A stretch of 32,322 nt of DNA from an uncultured Anderseniella sp. (GTDB taxonomy: Bacteria > Pseudomonadota > Alphaproteobacteria > Rhizobiales > Aestuariivirgaceae), in NCBI GenBank assembly GCA_938039915.1, contig CALHUA010000026.1, forward strand, positions 1-32,322. The letters run 5' to 3'. Shown piece by piece: positions 3,756 through 30,969 of this stretch. Made by a program: the position numbers and the translations under genes. The notes beneath the pieces are model-generated. The model saw only the letters and a list, made by a program, of their open reading frames with translations, had not been told where the DNA came from and did no database searches. Numbering within the stretch: position 1 is the stretch's first letter; each line of letters begins with the position of its first letter.

Positions 3756-4472
3756 GTGAACCCAAACACGCAACACAGCGTTAAATCAACGAATTTAGCC
3801 CTGAAATTTCAAGACTCTATAGAGGCCATAATGGACGCTGTCGTTAAACATACAGATGCCGTAAAGCCCAATATCGGGTCTGGCCCGACCGTTGAAAAGC
3901 CGAACGAAGAAGAAGCACTGGCTGCCGTTCGTACGCTGATTGCATGGGCCGGTGATGATCCGGACCGCGAGGGGCTGCTGGATACGCCAAAGCGGGTCCT
4001 CAAGGCATATGGCGAATTGTTCTCCGGTTACCAGGCGGACGGTCGCGATGCATTGCAGCGGACCTTCGAGGACGTCGGCGGATATGACGACATCGTACTG
4101 GTGCGAAATATTGAGTTCTTCTCACATTGCGAACACCACATGGTGCCGTTCCAGGGCCATGTTCACATTGCCTATCTGCCGACCAACGGTGTCGTCGGAC
4201 TGTCAAAGCTGGCCAGAGTGGTGGAAGTTTTTTCGCGTCGTTTGCAGACGCAGGAAAACCTCACCGCCCAGATCGTGCATGCCATCGACTCACAACTGGA
4301 TGCCCGCGGTGTTGCCGTCATGGTCGAAGCTGTACATAACTGCATGACCATGCGCGGCGTGCAGAAGCGTGACGCCTCAACACTGACCACCCGGTTTACC
4401 GGTGATTTCAAGTCGGTGCCGGCTCTGCAGGCACGCTTCATGGAAATGGTTCGATACCGCCAGCCCGACTGA
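3756..4472 (+). CDS. folE: GTP cyclohydrolase I
   Basis: [32 protein letters not shown]...[25 protein letters not shown]...[29 protein letters not shown] signatures. Start may instead be ATG at 3831. Confidence 0.97.
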
Positions 4473-4500
4473 TACTGCCATCAACTGCAGGGAAATCCAT

Positions 4501-4944
4501 TTGACTGATACGCTGTTTCCCCTTCCCTCCACCATTGATGATATCGAGGAAGGCAGCGCATTTGCGCCGCGCTTTGATGACGCCGGGCTGATCCCCGCAA
4601 TGGCAATTGATGCACAGACCAATGCGCCGTTGATGTTCGCCTACATGAACAGGGAAAGCCTCGCTCTCAGCCTAGAAACCGGGTTGGCGCATTATTATTC
4701 GCGGTCGCGCCAGTCCTTGTGGAAGAAGGGCGAAACGTCCGGGCAATTGCAGCACATAGACCGCATTCGAACAGATTGTGATCAGGACATCCTGGTGCTG
4801 GAGGTTCGTGTTGAAGGTGATGGCGCGGCGTGCCACACCGGGCGGGCCACCTGTTTCTACAGGCAGGTCAATTCAGACAGAAGTCTGACGACAATCGACA
4901 ATGTCAGAAAAATAGATCCGGAAGCGACATACGGCAAGAAATAA
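4501..4944 (+). CDS. hisI: Phosphoribosyl-AMP cyclohydrolase
   Basis: [70 protein letters not shown]...[11 protein letters not shown] is diagnostic for HisI. Probable TTG start at 4501; the ORF is open from 4402 but that overlaps folE. Confidence 0.94.
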
Positions 4945-4957
4945 GCTGCCGTGTCTA

Positions 4958-5219
4958 GAGTCCTTCACCCTTAAATAGAAGCGTTTGATGGTACCAAATC
5001 AGTTCACTCGGCTAGGCGCAAAGCGAAGCGCGATGTGGTGCATCGGGCAAGCTTTGCAACGACGCCGATGGACTGATTTGGTCCACCGAAGGCCTATTTT
5101 CTGCGCCCGCTGGACTGCGTTACGTCTCCCTTGTGGTCAACCAGACCACGGCGGGAGCCGTGCCTTGCCAGCAAACGCAGAAAATCGGTCAAACGATTCT
5201 ATTTAAGGGTGAAGGACTC
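4958..5219. mobile_element. MITE-like structured repeat element, 31-bp terminal inverted repeats flanked by TA
   Basis: Left arm 4958-4988 GAGTCCTTCACCCTTAAATAGAAGCGTTTGA and right arm 5189-5219 TCAAACGATTCTATTTAAGGGTGAAGGACTC are inverse complements with one mismatch. TA lies on both sides (4956-4957 and 5220-5221). Inner inverted repeats at 4993-5003/5072-5082 (ACCAAATCAGT/ACTGATTTGGT) and 5096-5105/5176-5185 (ATTTTCTGCG/CGCAGAAAAT). No credible CDS inside. Confidence 0.75.
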
Positions 5220-5743
5220 TAAGCCGAGGTACGGACCTCTTCATATTCAGGTGTCGGCGGCACAGCATCTGATGCTTCAGGCTCTGCCTGTTTCGACGCA
5301 GCAGACTTGGCGGCAGCAGTTTGCGGTTTGTCAGGTTTTGCCTCGTCTTCTTCGGTCAGGGCATGCAACAGCAGGTCATGCAGGTCAGCAAGCGTAATCA
5401 TTCCCTTGATCTCACCGTTTTCTGTGACCAGCACAAATTCCGATGCGGTGTTGTTCAGCAACTCCATGACCTGGATAATCTGCGTTGTGGTTTCACATGC
5501 CGGAACCAGATCGCGGACCAGATCACTGGCAACCATCTGCATCACTGACGATCCGAGCCTGCCGGACGCATTGATGATGTCCTTCTGCGACAGGGTTCCC
5601 TTGACTTCACCATACTCACTTAGGATGACCGTTCCGGGAGCCTGACACGACAGCAGGTATTCACACACATCCACGATCTTGGTGGATTGGACAATTGCCG
5701 GAACACCGCGCCCGTACTGTTCAATAATGTCCGCGGCATTCAT
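5219..5743 (-). CDS. CBS-domain-pair protein
   Basis: 174 aa; VDVCEYLLSCQAPGTVILSEYGEVKGTLSQKDIINA and ETTTQIIQVMELLNNTASEFVLVTENGEIKGMITLADLHDLLLHAL are two CBS motifs. Confidence 0.85.
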   Translation of the reverse strand: MNAADIIEQYGRGVPAIVQSTKIVDVCEYLLSCQAPGTVILSEYGEVKGTLSQKDIINASGRLGSSVMQMVASDLVRDLVPACETTTQIIQVMELLNNTASEFVLVTENGEIKGMITLADLHDLLLHALTEEDEAKPDKPQTAAAKSAASKQAEPEASDAVPPTPEYEEVRTSA

Positions 5744-25173: not shown

Positions 25174-25503
25174 TCAGGCTCCGGTTACGGGCTCGACATA
25201 GACCCTGATCTTGCCGCCGCACGCCAATCCGACTTCCCATGCGGTTTCATCCGCCACGCCGAAGGCCAGAACCTTGCCTTTACCGGTTTCAATGGCGTCC
25301 TGCGCCTCGGTCACAACGGCTCCTTCAACGCAGCCGCCGGATACGGAGCCTTCAAAATTGCCGTCGCCGTCGATGACCAGTTGCGAGCCGACCGGTTGCG
25401 GAGCGGACCCCCAGGTCTCGATGACCGTGGCCAGCGCCACTTTGCGGCCTTCGCGGACCCAGCTATTGGCCGTATTCAACAGGTTTGCATCATTGCTGCT
25501 CAT
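25174..25503 (-). CDS. XdhC/CoxI N-terminal-domain protein
   Basis: 109 aa; WVREGRKVALATVIETWGSAPQPVGSQLVIDGDGNFEGSVSGGCVEGAVVTEAQDAIETGKGKVLAFGVADETAWEVGLACGGKIRVYVEPV. Confidence 0.94.
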   Translation of the reverse strand: MSSNDANLLNTANSWVREGRKVALATVIETWGSAPQPVGSQLVIDGDGNFEGSVSGGCVEGAVVTEAQDAIETGKGKVLAFGVADETAWEVGLACGGKIRVYVEPVTGA

Positions 25504-26777
25504 GGTCTCACCTCATCCGTTTTCCGCGGATCAACCGCTGTGCCATCAAGCCATCGTTGCGGATCATGGGTTTCATTGCGCGAACCTGACAGGACTTCGG
25601 CCAGATCAGCAAGTGTATTCAATGAATGGCAGGGCCGGAACTCGTCCACATGGGGCATGATTGCCTTGATTCCGCTGGCGCGCGCTTCAAATCCACCATA
25701 GCGCAAAAGCGGATTGAGCCAGACAATTCGTTTGGCAGAGCGCGCCAGCCGCGCCATTTCCGCCTCCAGCAGGTCGACATCATCGCGGTCCAGTCCGTCC
25801 GTCATCATCAGCACGTGGGCGCCCTGGGCCAGAACCCGGCGCGCCCACTTCCGGTTGAACTCACGCAAGGTGTGGCCGATGCGGGTGCCGCCGGACCAGT
25901 CATCAACATGGCTGCCGACCAGCTCCATGGCTTCATCCACATCCCGGCGTTTCAGCTCACGGGTGATATTGGTCAGCCGCGTACCGAACACGAACACCTG
26001 GACCCGTGACCGGTCATTGGTCAGGGCATGCAGAAAATGCAGAAACACACGCGAATAGTTCGCCATGGATCCGGAAATATCCAGCAACACGACCAAAGGC
26101 GGCTCGCGCGTCTGGCGGGCCTTGTGGGCCAGAGACGTCATATTGCCCCCTGCCCGTAGTGACCGGCGTATGGTGGCACGCATATCCACCACGCCCTGGC
26201 GGGAAGGTTTGAACCGCCGCATCTTCACTTCCAGCCGGTTCATGCGCATGCGGGCAATGGCGGCACGGGCGATACGCTCTTCATCCGCACTCATCTGCTC
26301 AAAGTCCTTGTTGCGCATCACCTCGCGCGCTGACGAGGTAAACTCGCCTTCAAGTTCAACCTCGTCCGAAGGGCGTTCGCGTTGAGATTGCGCGTCGTCC
26401 TGATTGAAAAGGGCTTCTGCCAGCCGTTTGTTGCCGGCCTTCTTTTTCGCCGGTGCGGTTTCCACGCGGACCTGCTGAAACAACAACTGCATCAGTTGCT
26501 CAACCATTTGCGGCTTGCGCCAGAACACTTCGAACGCATGATCAAACAGCGTTGTGTGCTCATGCCGTTTCACGAACACCGAGTGCATGATCCAGTAGAA
26601 ATCGGTCTTGCTCGCCATGCCGCCACCGCGAACCGCCTCGAGTGCATCGAGCACGGCGCCGGGCCCGACCGGCAGGCCGGTGTCGCGCAACACCCGGGCG
26701 AAATGCATGATGTTGTCCGGCAGATGACCTGTTGGAGGCGGCTTGTTGGAATTGGCTGCTGTCGGCTGCATCGCCAT
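25500..26777 (-). CDS. coxE: CoxE-type VWA domain protein
   Basis: 425 aa; VVLLDISGSMANYSRVFLHFLHALT (MIDAS), VFGTRLTNITRELKRRDVDEAMELVGSHVDDWSGGTRIGHTLREFNRKWARRVLAQGAHVLMMTDGLDRD. Confidence 0.93.
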   Translation of the reverse strand: MAMQPTAANSNKPPPTGHLPDNIMHFARVLRDTGLPVGPGAVLDALEAVRGGGMASKTDFYWIMHSVFVKRHEHTTLFDHAFEVFWRKPQMVEQLMQLLFQQVRVETAPAKKKAGNKRLAEALFNQDDAQSQRERPSDEVELEGEFTSSAREVMRNKDFEQMSADEERIARAAIARMRMNRLEVKMRRFKPSRQGVVDMRATIRRSLRAGGNMTSLAHKARQTREPPLVVLLDISGSMANYSRVFLHFLHALTNDRSRVQVFVFGTRLTNITRELKRRDVDEAMELVGSHVDDWSGGTRIGHTLREFNRKWARRVLAQGAHVLMMTDGLDRDDVDLLEAEMARLARSAKRIVWLNPLLRYGGFEARASGIKAIMPHVDEFRPCHSLNTLADLAEVLSGSRNETHDPQRWLDGTAVDPRKTDEVRP

Positions 26778-26782
26778 CAGGA

Positions 26783-27706
26783 CTACTCGGCAGCGCGCAA
26801 GCGGATATCGGACTGTATCTGGTCAACCAGCCGCTTGGCTTCAGACCCCTCCATGCGGGCGATGTCATCCTGATATTTCAGCAGTACACCAAGCGTGTCG
26901 TTCACTGTCGCCGGGTCCAGGGCGATGGCATTCAGTTCGTTCAACGCCCCAACCCAGTCCAGGGTCTCAGCAACACCAGGTGACTTGAAAAGGTCCTGGC
27001 CACGCAATGCCTGGATGAAACCGACAACTTCCTGGGCCAGATCATCACCGACGCCGGGCTTGCGCGCCTTGATGATGGCAAGTTCACGCTCGGCCGAGGG
27101 ATATCCGACCCAGTGATACAGGCAGCGCCGCTTAAGCGCATCATGCACTTCGCGGGTGCGATTGGAGGTTACGATGACGATCGGCGGCTCAGCAGCCTTC
27201 ACCGTGCCAATTTCGGGAATGGTGATCTGATAGTCTGACAGCACTTCCAGCAAGAAGGCTTCGAACGCCTCGTCTGTCCGGTCAAGTTCATCGATCAACA
27301 GAACGGGCGGGCCGCTCTTGTGAGGCTCAAGTGCCTGCAGCAACGGCCGCTTGATCAGGAAGCGGTCGGAAAAAATATCCGACTGCAGCCGGTCACGGTC
27401 ATCGACACCTTCTGCTTCGGCCATGCGGATCTCGATCATCTGCGCCGAGTAATTCCACTCATAAACGGCTGCAGCCAGATCAAGGCCTTCATAGCACTGC
27501 AACCGGATCAGGTCGCGGCCGAGCACGGAGCTCAGCACCTTGGCAATTTCCGTCTTGCCGACACCTGCTTCGCCTTCCAGAAACAAAGGCCTGCCCATTT
27601 TCAATGCCAGATAAACCACCGTCGACAGCGGCCGGTCTGCCAGGTAACCGTCGTTGGACAAGAGTTCCTGTGTGGCATCAATGGAGGAAGGCAGTGGTTT
27701 GGGCAT
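26783..27706 (-). CDS. coxD: CoxD-type MoxR family AAA+ ATPase
   Basis: 307 aa; RPLFLEGEAGVGKTEIAKVL (Walker A), VLLIDELDRTDEAFEAFLLEVLSDYQITIPEIGTVKA (Walker B), VTSNRTREVHDALKRRCLYHWVGYPSAERELAIIKARKPGV. Confidence 0.95.
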   Translation of the reverse strand: MPKPLPSSIDATQELLSNDGYLADRPLSTVVYLALKMGRPLFLEGEAGVGKTEIAKVLSSVLGRDLIRLQCYEGLDLAAAVYEWNYSAQMIEIRMAEAEGVDDRDRLQSDIFSDRFLIKRPLLQALEPHKSGPPVLLIDELDRTDEAFEAFLLEVLSDYQITIPEIGTVKAAEPPIVIVTSNRTREVHDALKRRCLYHWVGYPSAERELAIIKARKPGVGDDLAQEVVGFIQALRGQDLFKSPGVAETLDWVGALNELNAIALDPATVNDTLGVLLKYQDDIARMEGSEAKRLVDQIQSDIRLRAAE

Positions 27707-27731
27707 ACGTTCGCTCAGCTTGTGTTGTTCT

Positions 27732-27765
27732 AAAAAAATAGTCCGCGAGCAAGATACCCGCGGAC
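27732..27765 (-). terminator. Intrinsic terminator between coxM and coxD (minus strand)
   Basis: Minus strand: GTCCGCG-ggtatcttgct-CGCGGAC followed by TATTTTTTTA; 7-bp perfect stem and a T7 run. Confidence 0.65.
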
Positions 27766-27787
27766 CGGTGTTGATACGGGGTTTGGC

Positions 27788-28582
27788 CTACTTGGCGGCA
27801 GCAATTGCCCGTTTGGCCATCACGCCCACAAGGTGTGCACGATACTCGGCGGACGCATGAATGTCCTCGTTCATGTCGTCAGCCTTGATTTTCACCTTGG
27901 CGATCGCATCGGCGGAGAAGTCTGCCGTCAGTGCCTTTTCCATGGCCTTTTCCCGGTAGGCAGAGCCTTTCGCGCCGGTTACTCCAACGCGAACACCCTT
28001 CTTGCCGAAATCTGCCACGAAGACACCAACCATGGCATAGCGTGATGCCGGGTTCGGGAACTTCGAGTAGGCAGACCGTGCCGGAATTTCAAACTCGATC
28101 TGCTTTATGATCTCGTTCGTCCGTAAGGCAGTTTCAAACAAAGACTTGAAGAACTTGTCCGCTTCAATTGTACGGCTGTCCGTAACCACTTTGGCATTCA
28201 GCGCCAACAAAGCTGACGGATAGTCCGCCGCCGGGTCGGCATTGGCGACCGAACCCCCAATGGTGCCCTTGTGGCGCACATGCGGATCTCCGATCATGCC
28301 GGCCAGTGCGGCAAGCGCAGGCACAGCCTTCTTCAGGTCAGAACTGGAAGCGACCTCCGCATGGGTGGTGCCCGCCTTGATGGTGACCTTGGTCTTGGTC
28401 ACGCTCACACCTGAATTGCCCAGGCCTGAAAGGTCGATCACGTCGGTTGGCGAAGCCAGTCGCTGTTTCATGGTTGGGATAAGCGTCATGCCCCCCGCCA
28501 TCAGCTTGCCTTCCTTCTTCGACTTGATCAGCTTGACCGCATCCGCCAGCTTCTTGGGACGGTGATATTCAAATTCATACAT
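27788..28582 (-). CDS. coxM: CoxM-type FAD-binding subunit of a xanthine dehydrogenase family enzyme
   Basis: 264 aa; MYEFEYHRPKKLADAVKLIKSKKEGKLMAGGMTLIPTMKQRLASPTDVIDLSGL...IGDPHVRHKGTIGGSVANADPAADYPSALLAL. Confidence 0.95.
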   Translation of the reverse strand: MYEFEYHRPKKLADAVKLIKSKKEGKLMAGGMTLIPTMKQRLASPTDVIDLSGLGNSGVSVTKTKVTIKAGTTHAEVASSSDLKKAVPALAALAGMIGDPHVRHKGTIGGSVANADPAADYPSALLALNAKVVTDSRTIEADKFFKSLFETALRTNEIIKQIEFEIPARSAYSKFPNPASRYAMVGVFVADFGKKGVRVGVTGAKGSAYREKAMEKALTADFSADAIAKVKIKADDMNEDIHASAEYRAHLVGVMAKRAIAAAK

Positions 28583-28605
28583 AGGTTTTCTCCTGTCCCT
28601 TTGGT

Positions 28606-30969
28606 TTATTCAGCCGCTTCGCGCAGATGCGCCATGGCGTTCCAGACATTTTGCGGTGTAGCCGGCATTGGCACGTCCTTGACGCCCAGTGCGCTGGTCA
28701 GTGCATTCATCACCGCAGCAGGTGCCGCAATCGCACCGGCCTCGCCACAACCCTTGATACCCAGCGGGTTCGACGGGCACTCGGTCTTGGTAAAGCCCAG
28801 CTTGAACGACGGCAGATTGTCAGCCCGTGGCATGCAATAGTCCATGTACGATCCAGTCAGAAGCTGACCGCCTTCATCATAGACAACAGCTTCGGTCAGT
28901 GCCTGACCGATACCCTGCGCAATGCCACCGTGCACCTGACCTTCGACAATCATCGGATTGATGACATTGCCGAAATCATCCACGGCCACCCAGTCGACGA
29001 TCTCGGTCACGCCGGTATCTGCATCGACTTCCAGTTCGCAGATATGACAACCGGCCGGGAACGTAAAGTTGGTCGGATCGTGGAAAGCGCCTTCCTTGAG
29101 ACCCGGCTCGATTTCCGAGGTCGGGAACTTGTGCGCCACATAGGCAGACAGCGCAACTTCGCCGAATGCCATCTTCTTGTCGGTGCCTTTGACCGAGAAG
29201 CTGCCATCCTTGAATTCGACATCACTCTCGGATGCTTCCATGACGTGAGCAGCCACCTTCTTCGCCTTGGCCTCGATCTTGTCGAGCGCCTTGGAAATAG
29301 CCGTCATGCCGACCGCACCCGAGCGCGACCCGTAGGTGCCCATGCCGAACTGAACCTTGTCGGTATCGCCATGAACGATAGCCACCTGATCGGCCGGAAT
29401 GCCAAGCCGGTCCGATACGAGCTGTGCAAAGGTCGTCTCGTGACCCTGGCCGTGACTGTGCGATCCGGTGAGGATCTCAACTGTGCCAACCGGGTTCACG
29501 CGGACTTCAGCCGACTCCCACAACCCGACGCCGGCACCCAGTGAACCAACCGCGGCCGACGGCGCAATACCGCATGCTTCAATATAGTTGGAGAACCCGA
29601 TGCCGCGCAGCTTGCCTTTGCGGGCCGAGGCGGCCTTGCGCTTTTCAAAGCCGGCATAATCGATCATCTCCATCGCCTTTTTCTGCGATGCGCCGTAATC
29701 GCCTGCGTCATAACACATGATGACAGGTGTCTGATGCGGGAACGAATTGACGAAATTCTTCGCCCGGAAGTCTGCCGGATCCATGCCCAGTTCGCGAGCC
29801 GCTGTTTCCATCAGCCGCTCCACGACATAGGTCGCTTCCGGCCTGCCGGCACCGCGATAGGCGTCCACGGGGGAGGTGTTGGTATAAACCGCATCCACCT
29901 CGGCATAGATGGCGGGAATATTATACTGGCCCGACAACAGCGTTGCATAAAGATAGGTCGGCACGGAAGACGCAAACGTCGACAGATATGCCCCCATATT
30001 GGCAATTGTCTTGGCACGCAGACCGGTGATTCTGCCATTGCTGTCGGTTGCCAGTTCCGCCTTGGTCACGTGGTCGCGGCCATTGGCATCGGTCAGGAAA
30101 GCTTCCGAACGGTCAGCCACCCATTTGACCGGCACGCCGCCGGCACGTTTCGACGCCCACAGGCACACAACCTCTTCGGCATAGATGAAAATCTTGGAAC
30201 CGAAACCACCGCCCACATCCGGCGCGATCACGCGCAGCTTGTGCTCAGGCGCCAGCCCTACGAATGCCGAGATGACAAGCCGGGCCACATGCGGGTTCTG
30301 GCTGGTGGTGTAGAGCGTGTAGTGATCTTCGCCCTCATCATACGAACCGATCGCAGCACGCGGCTCCATGGCATTCGGTGCCAGCCGGTTATTGACCAGA
30401 TCAAGGCTGGTTATGTGGGCTGCGCTGGCGAAGGCGGCCTCGGTTGCGGCCTTGTCGCCAAGCTCCCATTCAAACACGGTGTTCTTTGAAGCAACGTCAT
30501 GTACCTGCGGCGTGCCACGTTTTTGCGAAGCCACGGGATCGACATTGGCGTCCAGCACCTTGTACGTGACATTGATCATTTCGGCTGCGGCTTTTGCCTG
30601 CGCCATGGTATGGGCCACGACAACCGCCACCTGATCACCCACATGACGAACCTTGCCTTGCGCCAGCACCGGATGCGGCCCCGCCTTCATCGGCGAGCCG
30701 TCCTTGGAATGGATCATCCAGCCGCAAATGACACCGCCGATATTGTCGGCTGCGGCATCCTCGCCAGTCAGCACGCACAAGACACCCGGTGCCTTCTCGG
30801 CCTTCTTGATGTCGATCTTCTTGATCTCTGCGTGTGCATGGGGTGAGCGCAGGAAATATCCAACTGCCTGGCCCGGCAGGTTTATGTCGTCGGTATACCG
30901 GCCCTTGCCGGTGATGAAGCGGTGATCTTCCTTGCGCAGCATGCGTGCGCCAATGCCTGTATCACTCAT
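28606..30969 (-). CDS. coxL: CoxL-type molybdopterin-binding large subunit, form II (AYRGAGR motif)
   Basis: 787 aa; IGARMLRKEDHRFITGKGRYTDDINLPGQAVGYFLRSPHAHAEI...DVGGGFGSKIFIYAEEVV...VDAYRGAGRPEATYVVERLMETAARELGMDPADFRAKNF...HGQGHETTFAQLVSDRLGI. Confidence 0.95.
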   Translation of the reverse strand: MSDTGIGARMLRKEDHRFITGKGRYTDDINLPGQAVGYFLRSPHAHAEIKKIDIKKAEKAPGVLCVLTGEDAAADNIGGVICGWMIHSKDGSPMKAGPHPVLAQGKVRHVGDQVAVVVAHTMAQAKAAAEMINVTYKVLDANVDPVASQKRGTPQVHDVASKNTVFEWELGDKAATEAAFASAAHITSLDLVNNRLAPNAMEPRAAIGSYDEGEDHYTLYTTSQNPHVARLVISAFVGLAPEHKLRVIAPDVGGGFGSKIFIYAEEVVCLWASKRAGGVPVKWVADRSEAFLTDANGRDHVTKAELATDSNGRITGLRAKTIANMGAYLSTFASSVPTYLYATLLSGQYNIPAIYAEVDAVYTNTSPVDAYRGAGRPEATYVVERLMETAARELGMDPADFRAKNFVNSFPHQTPVIMCYDAGDYGASQKKAMEMIDYAGFEKRKAASARKGKLRGIGFSNYIEACGIAPSAAVGSLGAGVGLWESAEVRVNPVGTVEILTGSHSHGQGHETTFAQLVSDRLGIPADQVAIVHGDTDKVQFGMGTYGSRSGAVGMTAISKALDKIEAKAKKVAAHVMEASESDVEFKDGSFSVKGTDKKMAFGEVALSAYVAHKFPTSEIEPGLKEGAFHDPTNFTFPAGCHICELEVDADTGVTEIVDWVAVDDFGNVINPMIVEGQVHGGIAQGIGQALTEAVVYDEGGQLLTGSYMDYCMPRADNLPSFKLGFTKTECPSNPLGIKGCGEAGAIAAPAAVMNALTSALGVKDVPMPATPQNVWNAMAHLREAAE

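Follow-up and report, generated by a model that had tools for sequence, protein, structure and literature searches.

The window (the whole 32,322-nucleotide stretch of DNA that was analysed) belongs to Anderseniella, a genus placed in the Parvibaculaceae, Hyphomicrobiales, by the NCBI taxonomy. Within it a 262-bp element at 4958-5219 is flanked by the 3' ends of two genes in convergent orientation, a PRA-CH (hisI) gene on the + strand (4402-4944; Pfam PF01502) and a CBS-domain gene on the - strand (5219-5743; Pfam PF00571). The first-pass annotation had described this element from its letters, and the description was borne out: the terminal inverted repeats (TIRs; 4958-4988, + strand, and 5189-5219, - strand) are inverse complements at 30/31 positions, with one position differing, and TA is found on both sides (4956-4957 and 5220-5221). 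The two interior repeats that it listed are also there, one of 11 bp (4993-5003/5072-5082) extended inward by 5018-5024/5051-5057, and one of 10 bp (5096-5105/5176-5185) with the tip GTGGTC-AACCA-GACCAC. No ORF of at least 100 amino acids lies inside the 262 bp, and a transposase is not encoded.

Folding of positions 4950-5227 reproduced the proposed Y shape, a three-way junction with a predicted energy of -160.7 kcal/mol (z -14.2); 200 dinucleotide shuffles of the same stretch gave -88.1 +/- 5.1 kcal/mol, and none was as stable as the real sequence. The left TIR, as delimited by the bipartite conservation profile of 118 copies of the same end type (type A, below) and by the same register in IS630 ends, comprises an outer motif to 4961, a free self-complementary middle at about 4962-4972 and an inner motif at about 4973-4982; the right TIR was placed by sequence and the same kind of profile. 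Arm 1 (4989-5083), located by folding and covariation, is a hairpin with an AGG/AACG internal loop and the tip GATG-TGGTG-CATC, and is predicted to be stabler as RNA on the + strand. It is joined to arm 2 by a linker seen as conserved unpaired columns (5084-5095, within TCCACCGAAGGCC). Arm 2 (5092-5188) is, by an nhmmer profile match and by folding, the inverted homologue of arm 1, and is predicted to be stabler as RNA on the - strand. A search of Rfam returned no match at the gathering threshold and chance-level matches below it (E 0.13 or worse), and membership of a known Rfam family was rejected for want of a gathering-level match. The sequence has no T-run after the stems.

The flanking genes were present in all five congeners examined, and both flanks were found together in four of them. 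In two congeners (G001 and G005) the same hisI/CBS junction is uninterrupted and has a single TA (GTTTACGCCGAG and ATCTACGCCGAG), whereas the host junction reads GTCTA, then the element, then TAAGCCGAG; the junction of a third congener (G004) aligns like this empty site. The single TA implies that insertion duplicated the TA, giving the copies at 4956-4957 and 5220-5221, and that the element is exactly 4958-5219; a covariance-model match to it spans 4956-5221 (310.9 bits). Judged by its absence from the same junction in congeners, the window element is mobile. On the - strand, the CBS-domain gene ends GCG-TAA in G001 and GCT-TAG in the host, so the insertion hit the stop codon and the element's first base remade it as TAG; the ORF end and the empty-site alignments place this stop at the right TA copy together with G5219. 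The window copy is the one insertion for which a clean empty site was available: a local search for others produced no further convincing case, and a type-B flank query gave separate non-syntenic matches and no syntenic empty site.

Two kinds of ends were distinguished among 157 distinct copies, TAGAGC-like ends at TA in 121 (type A, which includes the window element with its variant TAGAGT) and ATACC ends in 35 (type B). The type-A copies start with TA in 110/121 cases and prefer YTAR as target, with Y preceding the TA in 107/121 and R following it in 112/121; in the profile of 118 of them, positions 1-6 and 18 to 27 are partly conserved and positions 7-17 are free. Type-B copies are flanked mostly by TNA triplets. 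The middle base of the triplet is the same on both sides in 25/35 copies, against 13.8 expected by shuffling (reached in 0 of 10,000 shuffles), and the duplication is therefore of 3 bp.

IS630-family (PF13358) transposons with matching ends, which the first-pass annotation had suggested looking for, were found in related genomes. Those with TAGAGC ends are L335, L337 (in congener G002) and L342, and those with ATACC ends and TNA duplications are L339, L343 and L349-L352; ORFs typical of IS630 lie inside L337 and L351. The type-B end is bipartite, ATACCAAAG-N11-TGACCCA, and is common to L349 and the type-B copies in the same register, while the type-A ends of elements and IS630 transposons alike have TAGAGC plus a G-N-N-N-C-like inner motif (of the G-A-A-N-C kind) at positions 23-27. 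What the transposons and the element have in common is these short end motifs, without long identity. The host assembly (G000, 78% complete) gave no PF13358 match, but congener G002 has one. IS5-family (PF13340) partners were also considered and rejected, most having TAGG-type ends, with one TAGAG-type end found (L316).

The element is thus short and without a transposase gene, and has TIRs, a target-site duplication, dispersed copies and, for one insertion, an empty site, as a MITE does. The TA duplication and matching ends uphold its earlier assignment as a non-autonomous IS630-type element at TA, and mobilisation by IS630 is well supported by the ends and duplications, the transposase probably acting in trans. 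The earlier suggestion that the fold might be a substrate for single-strand transposition, taken in the IS200/605 sense, is not supported, as the partners are DDE/IS630 enzymes and the target is duplicated. REP/RAYT and IS200/605 elements are short palindromes that are moved single-stranded and without target duplication; membership of either group is ruled out by the TA/TNA duplications and the 262-bp size. As a separate observation, the inner motif at the right end (the column of window position 5195) contains a GANTC (CcrM) site in 61/118 type-A copies, and that at the left end in 14, which makes for a recurring mismatch between the element ends; methylation at GANTC could mark one end.

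The host genome has about 20 copies (20 covariance-model matches among those scored). In the model search, relatives were found in 11/69 genomes of the family, in 55/298 genomes and 38/123 genera of the order, and in 38/385 genomes of the class; because the model contains many pairs, its low-scoring matches may reflect structure more than sequence. By a count from the tables, scores above 200 bits were obtained in some twenty genomes of the order that lie outside the family and in two genomes of the class outside the order (G619 and G657). The sequence is therefore multicopy in its host and has many relatives, contrary to the single-copy outcome against which the first-pass annotation had set its proposal. 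The window copy had no match in collections of plasmids and phages, nor did other queries; a one-armed hairpin relative used as query led to plasmids in Agrobacterium sp. MA01 and in Thalassospira marina. The model locates full-length elements on them, in Agrobacterium at about 265228-265492 of NZ_CP045856.1. A first DNA pattern search over the genome contigs had returned no match. No description of the family was found in a search of the open-access literature, in which reviews cover the IS630-related RUP and the two-armed CIR repeats but not these elements, and one may exist outside it; this is apparently a large, undescribed family of 262-bp alphaproteobacterial elements.

Several variant forms were seen during these searches. 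A relative on Thalassospira marina plasmid pCSC3H3 (L380:547-801) has a third end type, TTAAAGCCC...GGGCTTTAA. Relatives with a single arm, about 162 bp long and with ends of the same kind (L121:1501-1664, L159:4629-4790, L200:5-166, L151:6720-6881 and L161:4072-4233) fold as a single near-perfect hairpin, and the arm that they retain is of either type. Solo terminal repeats without a core (G000:C183:1992-2025 and G000:C95:16578-16610; L024, L028) are perhaps remnants.

The fold was examined by covariation. An RNAalifold consensus of 39 copies has 95 pairs, 66 of them with changes on both sides. Reconstruction on a 153-copy tree yielded 279 double changes between Watson-Crick pairs for the TIR stem, 89 for arm 1 and 123 for arm 2; with partners slid by 1-2 columns as a control, it yielded 4-10, 3-6 and 0-5, respectively. 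The two TIR arms of one copy match at 15.2/16 inner positions and those of different copies at 7.6/16, and the stem has 91 distinct inner sequences. It consists of fixed outer and inner motifs with a sequence-free middle that still pairs, at 14.3/15 positions in the elements (none at 9 or below) versus 8-9/15 in the IS630 transposons. Transposase binding explains matched ends at a fixed motif, but not pairing where the sequence is free. Mismatches in the TIR stem show near strand symmetry, with 53 G-T against 37 A-C among type-A copies and 10 against 9 among type-B copies. The internal loops, linker and tip loops are conserved across copies. All helices keep their pairing through matched double changes, and the variation between copies preserves the stems rather than destroying them. 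On this comparative evidence the fold is kept under constraint across copies, and the hundreds of matched base changes suggest that it is itself useful. The first-pass idea that the fold may be under selection is in keeping with these changes, while function at the RNA level is something that we infer.

An arm-1 profile aligns with arm 2 in reverse complement (nhmmer; best E 3.9e-11, L302). Among the matches listed, 48 were to reverse-complemented arm 2, one was to a shuffle and none was to forward arm 2, most of them being weak. In one genome (G225, L116) the two arms carry the identical tip GCGATGTGGTGCATC and both contain GGCWAGGCGC, and the Agrobacterium copy has the same inverted-arm symmetry. 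Profile matching and predicted folding together show the interior of the element to be two homologous hairpins, inverted, at a three-way junction based on the TIRs.

The inversion is accompanied by opposite strand polarity. For arm 1 RNA the + strand has a predicted stability advantage of 8.1 kcal/mol (95% of copies), and for arm 2 RNA the - strand has one of 8.5 kcal/mol (97% of copies), leaving the stability of the whole element balanced between strands. Constraint through + strand RNA alone was rejected because arm 2 favours the other strand. When one-sided changes at paired sites were set against the same kinds of change at that arm's unpaired sites, a lean towards G-U on the favoured strand was seen both in arm 1 (odds ratio 1.9, p 0.005) and in arm 2 (odds ratio 0.36, p 1e-6); the one-sided changes of the TIR stem had no such lean. 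The strand asymmetry of arm 2 appears with slid partners too, so that it is the unpaired-site comparison that carries the evidence at the RNA level. The arms share ancestry, and their polarity is therefore not two independent observations.

The placement of copies relative to genes, which were called with a home-made codon score, was also determined. Sides of the element face gene 3' ends in 162 cases versus 5' ends in 96 (p 5e-5), and the neighbours are convergent around 46 copies, tandem around 70 and divergent around 13. In 43/98 type-A copies a neighbour's stop codon is formed at the junction, the duplicated TA and the element's first G giving TAG, versus stop codons at 53/331 intergenic YTAR sites in the flanks (p 3e-8); five type-B copies form a neighbour's stop codon with TNA. 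This excess may come from survival instead of targeting. No orientation bias was found in tandem contexts (36 vs 34), as expected if either strand works.

The explanation that we favour, and consider probable, is that the element is a non-autonomous IS630-family MITE that borrows its transposase, and that its inverted hairpins are constrained and function as RNA downstream of stop codons. The element would be cut and pasted by an IS630 transposase provided in trans; it inserts at TA, preferably YTAR, and duplicates it. The arms would work as RNA and, as they are inverted, transcription from either side would give one hairpin of the favoured sense. An element that lands in a stop codon, as often happens, rebuilds the stop; this would make the insertion harmless and place a structured 3' untranslated region directly behind it, where the hairpin may protect the end of the mRNA or insulate it. 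The polarity, covariation and position of the arms make such a role as RNA likely.

A plain IS630 MITE, with a fold that has no function and a palindromy that comes from template switching (quasi-palindrome correction) or an inherited inverted duplication, would fit the near strand symmetry of the TIR-stem mismatches, as a DNA process predicts, and the near-perfect hairpins of the one-armed relatives. We regard this as rather unlikely, since the internal loops, linker and tip loops have been conserved instead of erased, and the arms have opposite G-U strand preferences. The same strand symmetry could instead reflect a fold needed at the DNA level for transposition, as a cruciform or hairpin that joins the ends or is recognised by the transposase, and pairing that runs through the TIR stem, with a middle that is sequence-free yet paired, would fit such a requirement. 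However, this pairing is evidently dispensable for movement of the IS630 partners, whose end middles match at 8-9/15, and the arms show RNA-type asymmetry; a DNA-level role of this kind is unlikely. A host structured regulatory RNA or terminator, spread by recombination and not as a transposon, would account for the 3'-end location, strong fold and covariation, but not for the TA/TNA duplications, IS630-like ends and empty site, and it has neither an Rfam relative nor a T-run after the stems, which makes it very improbable.

A broader reading can be offered tentatively, as possible but short of probable: a modular RNA hairpin may have spread across the class as an orientation-independent inverted dimer, changing its transposase partner at least once (TAGAGC/TA and ATACC/TNA) and landing in stop codons as a ready-made 3' untranslated region for whichever gene reads in.

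Among known repeats, RUP of Streptococcus pneumoniae (107 bp), for which mobilisation by IS630-Spn1 has been proposed, resembles the element in its IS630-type ends, TA target, intergenic location, high copy number and lack of coding capacity (PMC2229807). RUP is shorter, and the portion of the review cited here reports no other structural or functional signature for it; the inverted arm pair, compensatory evolution and second end type belong to the element and are not on record for RUP there (PMC2229807). Correia/NEMIS and ERIC/IRU repeats likewise have TIRs with TA at the termini and transcripts with long stem-loops, and RNase III cleavage has been proposed for NEMIS RNA, but they differ in hosts, sequence and size, and a two-armed inverted core and stop-codon landing are not described for them in the same portion (PMC2229807). 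The Caulobacter and Brucella repeats called CIR (about 110 bp, with GANTC at a tip loop) are also alphaproteobacterial and intergenic, with two linker-joined arms and a conserved RNA fold, but have no stem joining their ends, whereas the element has a long one (PMC2229807). GANTC is not enriched in the element (0.91 per copy vs 1.02 in shuffled sequence), and for this reason, together with the end stem, identity with CIR was rejected. IS630-family transposons (PF13358) have the same TA or TNA duplications and end motifs in register, but encode a transposase, which the element does not, and the element's two ends are far more complementary.

The family bears on the question of whether bacterial MITEs are junk or carriers of selected RNA structure, and it supplies strong natural data in the form of hundreds of matched double changes, a stem middle that is free but paired, and arms of opposite polarity. 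It also adds a structured family, spread across alphaproteobacteria, that is absent from Rfam, and the element illustrates a way of inserting at gene ends without breaking the gene. Elsewhere in the window, positions 25500-30969 encode a CoxE-like VWA protein and the large subunit of a molybdopterin-binding dehydrogenase, in a CO-dehydrogenase-like cluster.
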